64,000 nucleotides of DNA from Caulobacter sp. (GTDB lineage Bacteria; Pseudomonadota; Alphaproteobacteria; Caulobacterales; Caulobacteraceae): NCBI GenBank assembly GCA_019636175.1, contig JAHBYC010000004.1, positions 62,001 to 126,000 of the forward strand. The letters run 5' to 3'. The position numbers and the translations under genes are program-made. The notes beneath the pieces are model-generated. The model ran no database searches, was not told the origin of the DNA, and worked only from the letters and a program-made list of their open reading frames with translations. Positions 36,750 to 45,899 of the stretch are shown here, piece by piece. Every line of letters begins with the position of its first letter. The first letter of the stretch is position 1.

Positions 36750-36763
36750 TTGATCCAGATCAC
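36750..36763. promoter_or_regulatory. Near-perfect FixK/Fnr-type box before VIT transporter gene
   Basis: TTGAT-CCAG-ATCAC differs from TTGAT-N4-ATCAA only in the last base and lies 55 bp upstream of the VIT gene start. Low-oxygen control is inferred. Confidence 0.5.
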
Positions 36764-36818
36764 GACGCGCGACGGGCTAAAGCCTAGGGTGCCGCCAACG
36801 CTGAACAGGAAGCCCGCC

Positions 36819-37514
36819 ATGGCCCGTTCTCACCGCGAAATGCATCTGATCGAGCGGGTGGGGTGGCTTCGGGCCGCCGTGCTCGGCGCCAATGACGGCA
36901 TCGTCTCGACCGCCAGCCTGATCGTCGGGGTCGCCGCCGCCTCGCAGGGGCGGGGCGAGATCCTCGTCGCGGGGGTGGCGGGCCTGGTCGCCGGGGCCAT
37001 GTCGATGGCCGCGGGGGAGTATGTCTCGGTCAGCTCCCAGGCCGACACCGAGCGCGCCGACCTGGCGCGCGAGAGGTCGGAGCTGGAGACCCAGCCGGAG
37101 TTCGAACTCGAGGAACTGACCCAGATGTATGTGGCGAGGGGCGTTTCACCCGACCTCGCCCGGCAGGTCGCCGTCCAGATGACCGCCAACGACGCCCTCG
37201 GCGCTCACGCCCGCGACGAACTCGGCATTTCCGAGATCACCACCGCCCGACCCGTCCAGGCGGCGCTGGCCTCGGCCATGACCTTCTCGGTCGGCGCCGC
37301 ACTGCCCCTCTTGCTGGCCGCGATCACCCCGCTGACGGTCCTGGTCGCGACCGTGTCGGCCGCCTCGATCCTGTTTCTCGCCCTGCTCGGCGGCGTCGGC
37401 GCGAAGGCCGGCGGCGCCCCCATTCTGAAGGCCGTTGTCCGCGTCACCTTCTGGGGCGCCCTGGCCATGGCCCTGACCGCCGGCGTCGGGGCGGTGTTCG
37501 GCGTTCAGGCCTGA
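36819..37514 (+). CDS. VIT1/CCC1-family iron/manganese transporter-like protein
   Basis: A 231-aa membrane protein from ATG 36819 (CAGGAAG upstream). The family opening HLIERVGWLRAAVLGANDGIVSTASLIVGVA is present, followed by AGLVAGAMSMAAGEYVSVSSQADTERADLARERSEL. The cytoplasmic region has the acidic PEFELEELTQMYVARGVSPDLA, and three more helices follow. VIT/CCC1 proteins export cytosolic Fe2+ or Mn2+ into a compartment; in bacteria they are thought to move metal out of the cytosol. A FixK/Fnr-type site lies upstream. Confidence 0.9.
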   Translation: MARSHREMHLIERVGWLRAAVLGANDGIVSTASLIVGVAAASQGRGEILVAGVAGLVAGAMSMAAGEYVSVSSQADTERADLARERSELETQPEFELEELTQMYVARGVSPDLARQVAVQMTANDALGAHARDELGISEITTARPVQAALASAMTFSVGAALPLLLAAITPLTVLVATVSAASILFLALLGGVGAKAGGAPILKAVVRVTFWGALAMALTAGVGAVFGVQA

Positions 37515-40215: not shown

Positions 40216-42087
40216 TCAGCCCTTGCGCTTGGGCCCCTTGGCGAAGCTGGCCTTGCCCTTGGGCGGGGCGCCCTTGCCGGAACCCGCCTTGAAAGGAGGC
40301 TTCTTGTCGTAGGGCTTCTTGCCCTCGAACGGCTTCTTCTCGCCGAACGGCTTGCGCGGACCGCCGGGGCCGGCGCCGGAGCGGGGCGCGGGTCTGGGGG
40401 CGGGGGAACGGGGCGGGCGGGCGCTCCGGTCCTCAGCGGCGCCTGGCGCGGTCGAGGGCTCGATCTTGACGTCGTCGCGGCTGGTGGCCCGCACCGCCTC
40501 GGCGAACCGCACCGAGGCCTCGGCGCCGATCTCGAACCGGGTTTCGCTGTCGAAGATGCGGATCGAGCCGACGTCCTTCTTGGTCACGTGACCCAGGCGG
40601 CAGATCATCGGCAGGATCCATTTGGGGTCGGCGTTCTTCTGCCGGCCGACATTGAGGCGGAACCAGATGCCGTCGGTCATGGCCCCCATGCGCGGCTCGC
40701 GCGGCGCCCGTTCGGGCCGGTCATAGACGCCCCGGTCGGCGCGCTCCTGTCGCGCCGGCCGCTCCCCGCGCGCCGGGGGCGGGGCGTCGTAGAGCTCTTC
40801 CGGCTCGGGCAGGCCGGACCGCTGCAGGCGCATGAAGGCCCCGGCGATCTCCTCGGCGGACTTCTGCTCCAGCAGCAGCCTGCCGAGCGCCATATCGGCC
40901 TCGGACGGCGCCTCGAAGGCGACGGCCTGTTCCATCAGCCGGGCCTGATCGCGCTCGCGAATGGCCTCGGCGCTGGGCGGACCGCTCCAGCCGGCGTCGA
41001 GGTTGGCGCTGCTGATCAGCATCTCGGCCTTGCGGCGGCGGGTGTAGGGCACGATCAGCACGCTGGTGCCCTTGCGCCCGGCCCGGCCGGTGCGGCCCGA
41101 GCGGTGCAGCAGGGTGGCCTTGTTCTGCGGCAGATCGGCGTGGATGACGAGGCCGAGGTCGGGCAGGTCGAGGCCGCGCGCGGCGACGTCGGTGGCGACA
41201 CAGACCCGGGCATGGCCGTCGCGCAGGGCCTGCAGGGCGTCGGAGCGTTCGCGCTGGGAAAGCTCGCCCGACAGGCCGACGACGGCGAAGCCCCGCTCCT
41301 TCAGCGAGGCCTGGAGGTGGCGGACCGCTTCGCGGGTGTGACAGAAGACCAGCGCCCCGGGCGCCTCGAAGTAGCGCAGCACATTGACCACCGCGTGCTC
41401 GACCTCGTTCGGCGCCACGCGGACGGCGCGGTAGTCGATGTCGCCGTGCGGCTGGTCCTTGGTGGTGGTGTCGATGCGCAGGGCGTCGTTCTGGAACTTG
41501 CGGGCCAGCACGGCGATGTCGCGGGCGATGGTCGCCGAGAACAGCAGGGTGCGGCGCTCGGGCGGCGCGGCCTCGAGGATGAATTCCAGGTCCTCGCGGA
41601 AGCCGAGGTCCAGCATCTCGTCGGCCTCGTCCAGCACCACCGCCTTGATGGCGGTCAGTTCCAGGTTGCCGCGCTCCAGGTGATCGCGCAGCCGCCCGGG
41701 GGTGCCGACGACGATGTGGGCGCCGAAGTTCAGCGCCCGCGCCTCGGCCCGGGCGTCCATGCCGCCGACGCAGGAGACGATCTTCGCGCCGGTCTTGCCG
41801 TACAGCCAGGCCAGCTCGCGCTGCACCTGGATGGCCAGTTCGCGGGTCGGGGCGATGATCAGGGCCAGCGGCGCGTCGGCGCGGTCGAACCGCTCGGCCT
41901 CGCCCAGCAGGGTGGGGGCCATGGCGATGCCGAAGGCCACGGTCTTGCCGCTGCCGGTCTGGGCGCTGACCAGCAGGTCCTGGTCGCCCGCGGCTTCAAG
42001 CACGGCGGCCTGGACGGGGGTGGGGGTCTCATAGCCACGCTCGACGAGCGCCGCGTCGAGGGCGGGGTGGCTGGCGGGGAAGGTCAT
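40216..42087 (-). CDS. DEAD-box ATP-dependent RNA helicase with DbpA-like RNA-binding domain
   Basis: A 623-aa helicase. Motifs: I AQTGSGKT (42-49), Ia PTRELA, II DEAD (153-156), III SAT (184-186), VI HRSGRTGRAG. After the two RecA domains comes a DbpA/RRM-like domain (DGIWFRLNVGRQKNADPKWI and VTKKDVGSIRIFDSETRFEI), then a disordered Pro/Lys/Gly tail (KPFGEKKPFEGKKPYDKKPP). This is the DeaD/CsdA layout: unwinding structured mRNA and rRNA in ribosome assembly and cold adaptation. An ATTGTGC dyad lies 15 bp upstream of the start. Confidence 0.92.
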   Translation of the reverse strand: MTFPASHPALDAALVERGYETPTPVQAAVLEAAGDQDLLVSAQTGSGKTVAFGIAMAPTLLGEAERFDRADAPLALIIAPTRELAIQVQRELAWLYGKTGAKIVSCVGGMDARAEARALNFGAHIVVGTPGRLRDHLERGNLELTAIKAVVLDEADEMLDLGFREDLEFILEAAPPERRTLLFSATIARDIAVLARKFQNDALRIDTTTKDQPHGDIDYRAVRVAPNEVEHAVVNVLRYFEAPGALVFCHTREAVRHLQASLKERGFAVVGLSGELSQRERSDALQALRDGHARVCVATDVAARGLDLPDLGLVIHADLPQNKATLLHRSGRTGRAGRKGTSVLIVPYTRRRKAEMLISSANLDAGWSGPPSAEAIRERDQARLMEQAVAFEAPSEADMALGRLLLEQKSAEEIAGAFMRLQRSGLPEPEELYDAPPPARGERPARQERADRGVYDRPERAPREPRMGAMTDGIWFRLNVGRQKNADPKWILPMICRLGHVTKKDVGSIRIFDSETRFEIGAEASVRFAEAVRATSRDDVKIEPSTAPGAAEDRSARPPRSPAPRPAPRSGAGPGGPRKPFGEKKPFEGKKPYDKKPPFKAGSGKGAPPKGKASFAKGPKRKG

Positions 42088-42225: not shown

Positions 42226-45200
42226 TCAGCGGCCTTCTGGGCGGCGCCGCGTCCTTCGCCGTATGCGCCGGCGCGGCCTCTGGGTTGGCGGGGCCAGGGT
42301 GGGCGGCGGGGCGAAGCTTGGCAGGTCGGGCAGGCCGGGAGGGGCGGGCGATCCTGACTGGCTGCTTGCCGCCGGCGCGGTCCGGGCCGAGGCCTGGCCG
42401 TTGAGCGATGGCCAGCCCCGCCACCGATAGCTGGCGCCATCGGCGGATCGGTAGACGCCACGCTGGGGCGCGGCGGACGCCCCTGTCGCCGGCGGGCTGG
42501 TCAGGGCGGCCTCGACCCGGCAGTAGGCCTCGACGGGATCGCTCGCCTGACGTCGCAGCGCCGTTGTCAGCCAGGTTTCATAGGCGCGGCGCGAGACAAT
42601 GCCCTGGAAGGTCGCCTCTTCCAGGGACAGTGTTCCCTGCGACCACATCATCACCTCCCGCGGCCCCTGCAACCGCATCAGGCCGATCTCCAGCGGGCTG
42701 AGGGCCTTGCGACCGCCGAACGGCCGGAAATAGCGGCGAACCACCTCCTGGGGGCTGGTGATGCGCAGGTCATAGCCGGACTTCAGCAAGGCCGGGTCCG
42801 GCGCCAGCGGGGCGCCGGGCGTTTCCAGCGCCAGGGCCCAGGCGTCCATCAACACCTCGGCGAAGCGCCCGTACTGCAGGACGCCGTCGATCTCCCGGGC
42901 GTAGTCGGTCCAGAAATGCCCGGGCGTCTCGAACGGCGTGGCTCCATAGGCCGGGCGGAAGGTCACCGGGCCGTTGTCCTGGCTCCTGGCGCAGGACCCC
43001 ACCCAGGTCCCGCCCCTGGCGCCGGCCCGCTGCTGCGCCTCGAAGAAGGCGGCCGACTCCTTCTTGGCCCTTTGCAGGGCTTCGGTCCGGATGCGGCTGA
43101 GGGCCAGTTCGCCGCCCGACTGGCGCGACAGGATGCAGGCGCGTTCCTTCAGCAGGAACTGTCTGAGGGGCGGCTGGGTCGCGGCATGCTCGGCCCGCAC
43201 CGCGCGGATCGCCGCGGCGATGGCGCGCGGATCGGCATGCAGGGCGTCGGGACCGAGCCGCCGCGTCAGGGCGGCGCCGGCGTCAAACCTGCCGATCGGC
43301 GGCGGCGGCCCGTCGCAGCCGGCGGCGGCCACGGCAGGCTCCGTCGCGGCCTCCTCATTCCTGGAGGCCCGCAGAATGAACAGGCCCACGCTGCGGCGGT
43401 CGTCATCGGTGCTGATCTCGACCAGATAGTCGCGGCCGTCCTTCAGGTCGCCGGGCTTGAGGTTGATCTGGATGCGGTTGTCGGACCAGTCGACGATACG
43501 ACCCCGGCTCTGTCGGCCGCGCTTTTCCTCATGGATGTAGACGATGCCTTCCCTGGCGCCGAAGTCGGCGCCGAACAGCTCCACCCGGCCGGCGTCGGAG
43601 GGCAGCACCTGAATGATGTTCTGGCGGGCCAGGGCGGGATCGCCCGACAGCCGGATGATCGGCGTCCTGGCGCACCAGTTGGCGGCCGGCTTCGAGCCGA
43701 AGGCCGGCGCCCTGTCGCGGGCCTCGGTGCGGCTGACATAGCCCTGGTCGAGCCGCACCGGATCGCGGGGATCGCCGCTGGACAGGGTCCGCCGCACCCC
43801 GCGAATCTCGCACAGGGACCGGACCGGCTTGCCGTCCGCCTGGCGGCGGCGCGTCATGCGGCCCTCATAGGCCGGGTCGGTGCCCTGGTAGGCGAGGTCG
43901 GCCAGGAACTGGCAGCTCTGCTGCTTGGCCGGATCGTCCGACCGGCGCAGCAGGGCCAACACCTCCAGGCCCGCTTCGCCGCACCAGTGGTCGGAGTGGG
44001 CCAGGGACATGGCGCCATAGATGGTCTCGCCGTCGACGCCGCCTCTGGAGCGGTCTGGCAGGCCCGAAGGGTCGATCGGCTCGGCATAGACCGGCAGCCC
44101 CGCCGCATTCCCGGTCGGCGCGCCCCACAGCGAGCCGATGCCGCCCCGGGCCAGGTCGGTTCCGTCAGGATCGACCAGCTGTCGCCGCCACATGGTCCAG
44201 GCCAGGGCGATGAGGTCGGCGTTTTTGAAGACATGCTCGTTGCCCATGGTCACGCCGGGCGGCGTTACGACCTGCAGGGTTCCCAGAATGCTGATGCCGG
44301 TGGTCCCCTCGCCGACAAAGCCGACATACATCGACCGGTTGGTGGCCCACATGTCCCAGCAGGAGGCCTCATGGATCACCGCGAAATCCGGCGCCCCGTC
44401 GGCCAACTGGGCGCCGAACACGCCGTAGCCGCCTTCTTCGCGTCCAAAGGCGCGGATCACCTCGGCCCAGCCGGCCTTGGAACAGGTCAGCATCTCGCGG
44501 GTCTGGCGGGAGACGTCGATCGGATGATCCTTGGCCAGCCAGCCATAGCCCCGGCCGAAGGCGCCGCGTCGCAGGTCCGCCAGCCGCTCGTCGCCGACGG
44601 CGTTGATCGGTCCCTCCCGCGGCGAGGCGGCATGGACAAAGGTCATCGGCCGGGCCCCGTCCGGGTCGGCGAGGGGAGAGGACATCGGATCGGCGTTGAT
44701 CGCCCAACCCTTGCCCAGCTTCGCGTTCAGCACCGACTCCGCGCCGTGGATCAGCCCGGCCACGCCGCCGACGAAGACGCCGCCCCAGGGGGAGGGGTGG
44801 GCCGCCTGGGTGCGGTCAGGCCCGTCCCAGCGCTCCCACATATGGCCGATGGCCCAGCGATCCTGCAGGAAGTGCTGGGCATAGCCCTCATACATCAGGG
44901 CCTGGAGCTCGCTCTCCTTCAGCGCCCGGGCATAGACCTGACGCTCCCCGGGCGACATCTGCTCGCGCAGCCGCCTGGCCCGGCTGGCCCGCTGCAGGGC
45001 CAACTCGTGATAGTGGGCGTACATCCGCGTGGCCTGGGAGCCGAAGTGGACGGAGTTCAGGCCGCCCATCCAGCCCATGAACTCGTGGCACAGGGCGTCA
45101 TCATTGGCCGGCTCGCCCAGGGGGCAGACCCGGTTCTTGTTCAGCCAGTCCGCCGGGCCATAGCTGTAGTCGGGCATGCCGGCGAACTGGGCCGGCGCGG

Positions 45201-45510
45201 GCAGCAACCGCTCCTCGACCTCCGTCCGGCGGTTGTCGCCTTCCCGCGAGCTGTCCTTCAGCAGCTCGGCCCGGAAGTAGGTGGCGTTGAGATCGACCAG
45301 ATCGGCGCTGGCCCGACCGCCCTTTCCGAACAGGTCGCCGACGCCAAGCTGATGCAGGGCCATGTCGGCCAGGGTGGTGTGCTCGGGAATGGAGCCGCTG
45401 GAGCCCTGGAAATAGGTCGAGCGCCAGGTCTCGCCATTGATGACCCGCGTGTCCCAGGCGACCAGCAGCAGCGCCAGCGGGGCCAGCAGCCAGGGACGCC
45501 AGGCCTTCAC
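42226..45510 (-). CDS. Uncharacterised 1094-aa exported protein: Zn-PLC/S1-P1-like helical domain plus TIG-like domain
   Basis: Starts GTG 45510, overlapping the preceding lipoprotein gene by 4 bp (GTGA). The N-terminus has a hydrophobic segment (MKAWRPWLLAPLALLLVAW), a signal or anchor. Residues 206-224 read MYEGYAQHFLQDRWAIGHM: H213-x3-D217-x5-H223 is the same spacing as the zinc ligands of zinc phospholipase C and S1/P1 nuclease. Residues about 632-714 look like an IPT/TIG immunoglobulin fold (RVELFGADFGAREGIVYIHE, RIVDWSDNRIQINL). The C-terminal third is helical, and the last 25 residues are very Arg-rich. I know no named family for the whole protein; enzymatic activity is inferred only from the metal-motif spacing. 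Confidence 0.72.
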   Translation of the reverse strand: MKAWRPWLLAPLALLLVAWDTRVINGETWRSTYFQGSSGSIPEHTTLADMALHQLGVGDLFGKGGRASADLVDLNATYFRAELLKDSSREGDNRRTEVEERLLPAPAQFAGMPDYSYGPADWLNKNRVCPLGEPANDDALCHEFMGWMGGLNSVHFGSQATRMYAHYHELALQRASRARRLREQMSPGERQVYARALKESELQALMYEGYAQHFLQDRWAIGHMWERWDGPDRTQAAHPSPWGGVFVGGVAGLIHGAESVLNAKLGKGWAINADPMSSPLADPDGARPMTFVHAASPREGPINAVGDERLADLRRGAFGRGYGWLAKDHPIDVSRQTREMLTCSKAGWAEVIRAFGREEGGYGVFGAQLADGAPDFAVIHEASCWDMWATNRSMYVGFVGEGTTGISILGTLQVVTPPGVTMGNEHVFKNADLIALAWTMWRRQLVDPDGTDLARGGIGSLWGAPTGNAAGLPVYAEPIDPSGLPDRSRGGVDGETIYGAMSLAHSDHWCGEAGLEVLALLRRSDDPAKQQSCQFLADLAYQGTDPAYEGRMTRRRQADGKPVRSLCEIRGVRRTLSSGDPRDPVRLDQGYVSRTEARDRAPAFGSKPAANWCARTPIIRLSGDPALARQNIIQVLPSDAGRVELFGADFGAREGIVYIHEEKRGRQSRGRIVDWSDNRIQINLKPGDLKDGRDYLVEISTDDDRRSVGLFILRASRNEEAATEPAVAAAGCDGPPPPIGRFDAGAALTRRLGPDALHADPRAIAAAIRAVRAEHAATQPPLRQFLLKERACILSRQSGGELALSRIRTEALQRAKKESAAFFEAQQRAGARGGTWVGSCARSQDNGPVTFRPAYGATPFETPGHFWTDYAREIDGVLQYGRFAEVLMDAWALALETPGAPLAPDPALLKSGYDLRITSPQEVVRRYFRPFGGRKALSPLEIGLMRLQGPREVMMWSQGTLSLEEATFQGIVSRRAYETWLTTALRRQASDPVEAYCRVEAALTSPPATGASAAPQRGVYRSADGASYRWRGWPSLNGQASARTAPAASSQSGSPAPPGLPDLPSFAPPPTLAPPTQRPRRRIRRRTRRRPEGR

Positions 45511-45899
45511 GGCGCGGGCTTGCCGACCGGCCGGCAGACGGCGCCGGGCCGGATGAAGACGGTTTCAAAGGCGTCCAGCCGGGCTTCGCGACCGCTGACC
45601 CCCTCCAGCGCGGTGTTCAGGGCGGTCACGCAACGGGGTTCGCAGGCCTCGGGCGTGGCGCAGGCGCCGACCTCGCCCCCCGCCTCGACGCACCGGGTCA
45701 CGGTCTCCAGGCAGCCGGCCCATCTGACCACGGCCGGGTCGGGGTTGGGATCGACCTGGATGACCTGGGCGGTGATGTCCTGGTGGCCGACCGCCTTCTT
45801 GCCATCGCCGCAACCGGAGGCCGCCAGTCCCGTCAGGGCGGTCAGCAAAAGAACAGCGGCGCGTCGCTTCAACTCTGCCCCCGGCAAGGTCGTTCGCAT
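45507..45899 (-). CDS. Small lipoprotein coupled to the 1094-aa protein
   Basis: A 130-aa precursor with lipobox ASGC (C30) after a hydrophobic stretch AAVLLLTALTGLA. The mature part has seven further cysteines (AGCLETVTRCVEAG, GACATPEACEPRC, AVCRPVG), enough for several disulfides, and no family I recognise. ATG 45899 has no clear ribosome site; TTG at residue 10 with GGGGCAGAG before it is an alternative start. Its stop overlaps the start of the 1094-aa gene, so the two are a translation-coupled pair and probably act together in the periplasm. Confidence 0.72.
   Translation of the reverse strand: MRTTLPGAELKRRAAVLLLTALTGLAASGCGDGKKAVGHQDITAQVIQVDPNPDPAVVRWAGCLETVTRCVEAGGEVGACATPEACEPRCVTALNTALEGVSGREARLDAFETVFIRPGAVCRPVGKPAP

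Follow-up and report, generated by a model that had tools for sequence, protein, structure and literature searches.

The window (the whole stretch of DNA analyzed here, 64,000 nucleotides of the Caulobacter sp. contig JAHBYC010000004.1) carries on its reverse strand two overlapping genes. The upstream one (bp 45507–45899) encodes a predicted lipoprotein of 130 amino acids with a six-cysteine domain, here called the partner, and the downstream one (bp 42226–45510, GTG start) encodes a large, predicted secreted protein of 1094 amino acids, here called the enzyme in view of its putative activity, which displays the metal ligand order of zinc phospholipase C (PLC) and S1/P1 nucleases followed by a TIG-like domain and a variable C-terminus. 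The end of the partner gene and the start of the enzyme gene share the four bases GTGA (bp 45507–45510), and the coordinates, lengths and overlap are thus as a preliminary description of this DNA had given them. GC content at codon positions 1, 2 and 3 is 0.69/0.55/0.89 in the large open reading frame (ORF) and 0.71/0.58/0.86 in the small one, and the third-position values of both are typical of coding sequence. Both genes are under purifying selection when compared with locus L001 of a Caulobacter metagenome-assembled genome (MAG), whose protein is 77% identical to the enzyme in the best segment; the partner has nonsynonymous/synonymous substitution values (dN/dS) of 0.170/0.510, and the enzyme, compared from residue 145 on, has 0.165/0.634. 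Within the enzyme, residues 145–740 evolve more slowly (dN 0.094) than residues 741–1094 (dN 0.305). This two-gene unit is real, conserved and rare.

A scan of genome contigs found nine loci with enzyme relatives, whose best segments have 77 to 29% identity, in Caulobacter, an alphaproteobacterial MAG, Brevundimonas, two Maricaulis, Psychromarinibacter, Robiginitomaculum, a member of the Myxococcales and a gammaproteobacterial MAG. Searches among genomes of the same class, family and phylum matched the enzyme in 3 of 385, 5 of 390 and 3 of 398 genomes, respectively (the window's own genome is counted in each), and added loci L012, L013, L017 and L024, for a total of 13 non-redundant relatives (L010, L011, L014–L016, L018, L022, L023 and L028–L032 repeat the window genome or genomes already counted and are left out of the counts). 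The enzyme gene is rare and patchy in the genomes sampled; no relative was found in plasmids or phages at the sensitivity used, nor in viral contigs, where the search covered two peptide patterns only. Among the three nearest relatives, two carry one disruption each, an in-frame TAG at enzyme codon 63 in the Caulobacter MAG (L001:6187-6189) and a frameshift at the enzyme HxxxD motif in a Brevundimonas MAG (L003, around bp 6618), which may reflect assembly error or decay. Beside the pair at L006 lies an ORF (L006:5199-5897) that we take to resemble an IS6-type transposase, a possible sign of transfer.

The preliminary description had asked if the pair is always adjacent, and it is so in 14 of 14 loci, with a partner ORF upstream whose end overlaps the enzyme start by a four-base RTGA in every case. 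The partner was found by tblastn at L001–L007 and by profile at L008 (E value 9e-18), at L012, L013 and L017 (3e-20 to 4e-18) and at L024 (1.2e-32). The upstream ORF at L009 (L009:4454-5710) encodes 418 amino acids, with PKD domains ahead of a C-terminal stretch with a similar cysteine pattern; its match to the partner profile is insignificant (E 0.22 over the sequence, with 1.3 for the best domain, and no match at E 1 in a second search), and it is accepted as a partner on position, overlap and cysteine pattern only. The enzyme search and a separate search with the partner alignment identified the same 5 of 390 family genomes; both profiles include members of those five genomes, so this agreement shows only that neither gene was found without the other at E 0.001. 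The pairwise identities of enzyme and partner also correlate (r = 0.83, 66 pairs), to which shared ancestry contributes.

The H213-x3-D217-x5-H223 motif on which attention was first drawn to the enzyme (bp 44842–44874) is indeed present in MYEGYAQHFLQDRWAIGHM of the printed enzyme sequence, and it is conserved in every aligned row that covers these positions. An alignment of the window protein with 10 of the 13 relatives (A7, 11 proteins; L001, L003 and L005 are left out) contains 35 invariant columns, among them W19, H44, D73, D114, H155, H168, E208, Q212, H213, D217, H223, H255 and E258. A nine-ligand order of the PLC/P1 type is complete and invariant in 11 of the 11 proteins; it comprises W19 (bp 45454–45456) and the predicted ligands H44 (bp 45379–45381), D114 (bp 45169–45171, for which the equally invariant D73 is an alternative), H155 (bp 45046–45048), the three residues of the motif, and H255 with E258 (bp 44737–44748). 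The order matches the PLC ligand list, namely an N-terminal Trp, then H, D, H, HxxxDxxxxxH, H and an acidic residue. Five further histidines had been proposed as candidate ligands; H44 and H168 are invariant, and the remaining three vary (of the eight rows that cover H142, seven have His and L008 has Tyr, H166 is replaced by Arg or Gln in a part of the rows, and H238 is common to the window protein and L001 and not to the other rows among those listed). H155, H255 and the N-terminal Trp are invariant and had not been named. When residues were shuffled among the 35 invariant columns, HxxxDxxxxxH arose in 18,485 of 2,000,000 trials and the full ordered nine-ligand pattern in 64 of 2,000,000. By this post hoc test, in which the pattern was picked after the data were seen, the motif and the ligand order exceed chance expectation, the full nine-ligand pattern being rare under label shuffling.

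W19 comes straight after the residues LLLVA at the end of a predicted signal peptide (residues 1–18, bp 45457–45510, last residue Ala, recognized by eye). This Trp is preceded in 14 of 14 proteins by an Ala or Gly that closes a hydrophobic stretch (by eye), so ordinary signal-peptide cleavage would create an N-terminal Trp at a metal ligand position. Its analogues are Trp27 of the bacterial S1/P1 nuclease SmNuc1, in which three zinc ions are bound by Trp27, His32, Asp71, His88, His141, Asp145, His151, His175 and Asp179 (PMC11705217), and W1 of the Listeria monocytogenes enzyme LmPC-PLC, where an extra residue ahead of W1 abolishes activity and where the propeptide acts as an inhibitor in trans (PMC10576769). 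In S1 nuclease itself the N-terminal main chain of Trp21 serves as a ligand (PMC5201275). PLC/P1-type chemistry is well supported as a predicted likeness, one of ligand residues alone and not of profile membership.

The partner has seven cysteines (residues 30, 63, 70, 80, 86, 90 and 122), not the eight that had been counted. One is in the putative lipobox and six follow the anchor, in a domain that spans residues 60–122 (bp 45534–45722). The lipobox reported earlier is a candidate one, ASGC at residues 27–30, and its −3 residue is Ala; the canonical residue at −3 is Leu, Val or Ile, and Ala is weaker. Eight of the 14 partners have a lipobox-like start and six have a transmembrane helix instead (by eye), so the constant feature is membrane tethering and not the outer-membrane location that had been proposed. 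Both Maricaulis partners lack C63 as well as C86, and this joint absence suggests that the two residues may form a disulfide.

The structure model of the enzyme (predicted template modeling score 0.81) is mostly helical ahead of the TIG-like domain. This domain, previously placed at about residues 632–714, is supported by the model as a TIG-type immunoglobulin-like fold at precursor residues 613–718 (bp 43357–43674; model residues 595–700 in the fold comparison). The 50 VIA matches listed all fall at model residues 533–705 (the Foldseek listing is without ranges), and in a search of PDB sequences with profile A1 the TIG region weakly matches CGTase (E 0.079) and an IPT/TIG chain (E 0.43); PF01833 matches neither the window protein nor the nine family members scanned. 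The C-terminal region beyond it (residues 741–1094, bp 42229–43290) is poorly conserved and has an Arg-rich end, and there is no VWA match in the window protein. Enzyme versions of roughly 1400 amino acids or more that end in a VWA domain (E 6.5e-8 to 4e-7) are encoded in extended stretches around L012, L013 and L017 (L019:7710-13000, L020:660-5994 and L021:5832-11359, with the following ORF), and a DKSGSMS stretch can be read in that of L021. Directly downstream of these longer versions lies a further ORF with a signal-peptide-like start, which in one case out of three is weakly matched by PPC (E 0.0065). In the Brevundimonas MAG, a gene for an RTX nonapeptide-repeat protein with 14 matched stretches (L003:9283-11346) follows the enzyme gene.

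A number of results weigh against assigning the enzyme to the zinc phospholipase/nuclease superfamily. The PF00882, PF02265 and PF01833 profiles named in the preliminary description do not match the window protein or the relatives scanned, and the window protein has no Pfam match at all. PF00882 is without a match in the window's own genome, in nine family members and in four further relatives; this profile is able to find members, as 12 of 299 genomes in the phylum have a match to it. PF02265, which matched 3 of 58 genomes of the class, has no match in the own genome. Profile–profile comparisons are insignificant with both families, E 0.097 to 0.44 against PF02265 sets (14 S1/P1 sequences in one run) and E 0.23 to 0.5 against PF00882 sets (3 or 6 of 12 loci); six of the 12 PF00882 loci and 14 of 15 S1/P1 sequences could be used (L056 gave no frame). 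The control comparison of PF02265 with PF00882 gave E 0.2, 0.083 and 0.001 in three runs, and since one of the three reached E 0.001, distance as well as lack of power may matter. Foldseek with the model has no match at E <= 0.001 (best E 8.8e-3), and neither its 50 listed matches nor the 50 of VIA include a PLC or S1/P1 entry, a weak negative in that one domain fills the VIA list; profiles A7 and A8 found no match among PDB sequences. Within the pattern itself, D73 rivals D114 as third ligand, the first ligands are spaced more widely than those of SmNuc1, the last pair H255-x2-E258 is spaced +3 in 11 of 11 aligned proteins versus +4 in SmNuc1, and the mature N-terminus (model residues 1–23) is modeled at a predicted local distance difference test score below 50. 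Binding between partner and enzyme, and the substrate, are moreover what we infer here. We regard as chance an NCBIfam tom40 match of the window protein (E 0.04; it scores 13.6 bits, where the cut-off is 271.85), three weak Pfam matches, each in a single family member, and matches to antibody light chains. Pfam, NCBIfam, PADLOC and PHROGs offer no family for either protein, and a defense-system role is without a PADLOC match.

Several known systems come close. The PF00882 enzymes of Bacillus cereus, L. monocytogenes and Clostridium perfringens are secreted and share the nine ligands in order with an N-terminal Trp, a likeness of sequence only. For its activity LmPC-PLC depends on W1 being free, and inhibition in trans is possible. 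The window enzyme differs in that it has no Pfam match, no apparent propeptide and its last ligand pair at +3, and in being much longer, with a TIG-like domain, a C-terminal region and a separate partner gene. The S1/P1 family (PF02265) likewise shares the nine-ligand order of SmNuc1 and the mature N-terminal Trp; here too there is no Pfam match, the spacings are longer, the last pair is off by one, and the TIG-like domain and partner gene are features of the window pair (they were not looked for around the fetched S1/P1 genes). The Het-C domain has been linked to PLC and S1/P1 enzymes (PMC3482391) and is a comparable remote branch, recognized by its ligand residues with borderline profile scores; Het-C matches neither the window protein nor the relatives scanned, and no N-terminal Trp rule for Het-C appears in the available part of that paper. 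Tle/Tli and LipA/LipH pairs resemble the window pair in that a lipid hydrolase is accompanied by a partner that is tethered to the membrane or is a lipoprotein; the window enzyme differs in having its own Sec-type signal, and the window partner in being a small six-cysteine domain without a match in the libraries searched. None of the titles of open PMC papers listed in our literature searches is on this enzyme–partner pair; papers on it may nonetheless exist.

The conserved ligand set, the position of the Trp, the TIG-like domain and the coupled pair are observed features; around them we infer a metal, a substrate, enzyme–partner binding and a choice between restraint and folding. The partner would be translated first and be held in the periplasm by a lipid or transmembrane helix, its cysteine domain probably oxidized to three disulfides. 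The enzyme, made by translational coupling, would enter the periplasm via Sec, signal peptidase would cleave just before W19, and the freed Trp N-terminus could then complete a trinuclear zinc site with H44, D114, H155, H213, D217, H223, H255 and E258. Without a propeptide the enzyme should be active once cleaved, and so the partner would bind it in the periplasm and keep it inactive, or aid its folding, until release or export; the partner probably restrains the enzyme or helps it to fold. Export is possible, as the same genome has a T2SSC match (type II secretion, E 5.4e-14). The likeliest substrate would be phospholipid head groups, as for PLC, because a periplasmic phospholipase, unlike a nuclease, endangers its own cell and needs control. 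There are reported precedents in the lipoprotein immunity protein Tli3 beside the lipid hydrolase Tle3 (PMC9860674), in a Tli that both neutralizes and activates its Tle (PMC10294624) and in the membrane-anchored foldase LipH (PMC13381987). We lean, by a small measure, toward the view that the pair is a secreted metallo-phosphodiesterase with a dedicated membrane-tethered handler. More tentatively, and with less than even confidence, we propose that it represents a further PLC/P1 branch in which propeptide control has been replaced by a separate, co-translated, membrane-tethered six-cysteine protein that captures the enzyme at the moment of its arming by signal peptidase, an inhibitor/foldase–enzyme system of alphaproteobacteria, a Myxococcales bacterium and a gammaproteobacterium (with the weaker partner match). 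Such a system is absent from the descriptions in the profile libraries searched. If the proposal is true, this would be a new family of the zinc phospholipase/nuclease superfamily that profile libraries have overlooked, and a clear example of signal peptidase arming an enzyme via the enzyme's own N-terminal residue, which hence needs a partner in trans; the strict pairing makes the partner's role directly testable.

The partner could instead be a steric chaperone like the lipase foldases, without any inhibition, and this is a serious possibility that we nonetheless rate as falling well below an even chance. Membrane anchoring, adjacency, the type II secretion gene in the genome and the LipH precedent all fit it, but the partner domain of about 90 amino acids with conserved cysteines is unlike the five-domain Lif (PMC7046727). 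It is rather unlikely that the enzyme is an S1/P1-like nuclease or 3′-nucleotidase for nutrient scavenging with the partner only a foldase or tether; the ligand order and N-terminal Trp are common to S1/P1 enzymes, which are widespread in bacteria (64 plasmid records), yet the ligand surroundings (EH..L...AL, PD, N..HF and HF..D....GH) are by eye nearer to PF00882 members than to the S1/P1 GDIHQPLH core. We gave up a further idea, namely that S1/P1 genes on plasmids have no partner, because flanks of 60 bases and a gene table that is incomplete are insufficient to demonstrate this.

There are two further alternatives. The metal site could be structural or inactive and the pair a binding or adhesion module, in line with the TIG-like domain of the window protein, the VWA matches of the three longer relatives and the DKSGSMS stretch in L021; we consider this improbable, as all nine ligand positions and E208, Q212 and H168 are invariant and it is the C-terminal part that drifts fastest (dN 0.31 versus 0.09). 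There is a similarly slim chance that another metalloenzyme fold has converged on a coincidental HxxxDxxxxxH. The negative profile tests and the lack of a PLC or S1/P1 entry among the fold matches listed would agree with convergence, which must however account for six more ligand-type positions in the correct order and for the Trp with which 14 of 14 proteins appear to begin in their mature form. The handler interpretation given above remains our preferred one.

Downstream of the pair and on the same strand, bp 40216–42087 of the window encode a DEAD-box helicase with a DbpA RNA-binding domain, and an ORF of similar size and start is kept at that place in L001. A VIT1-family protein is encoded at bp 36750–37514.

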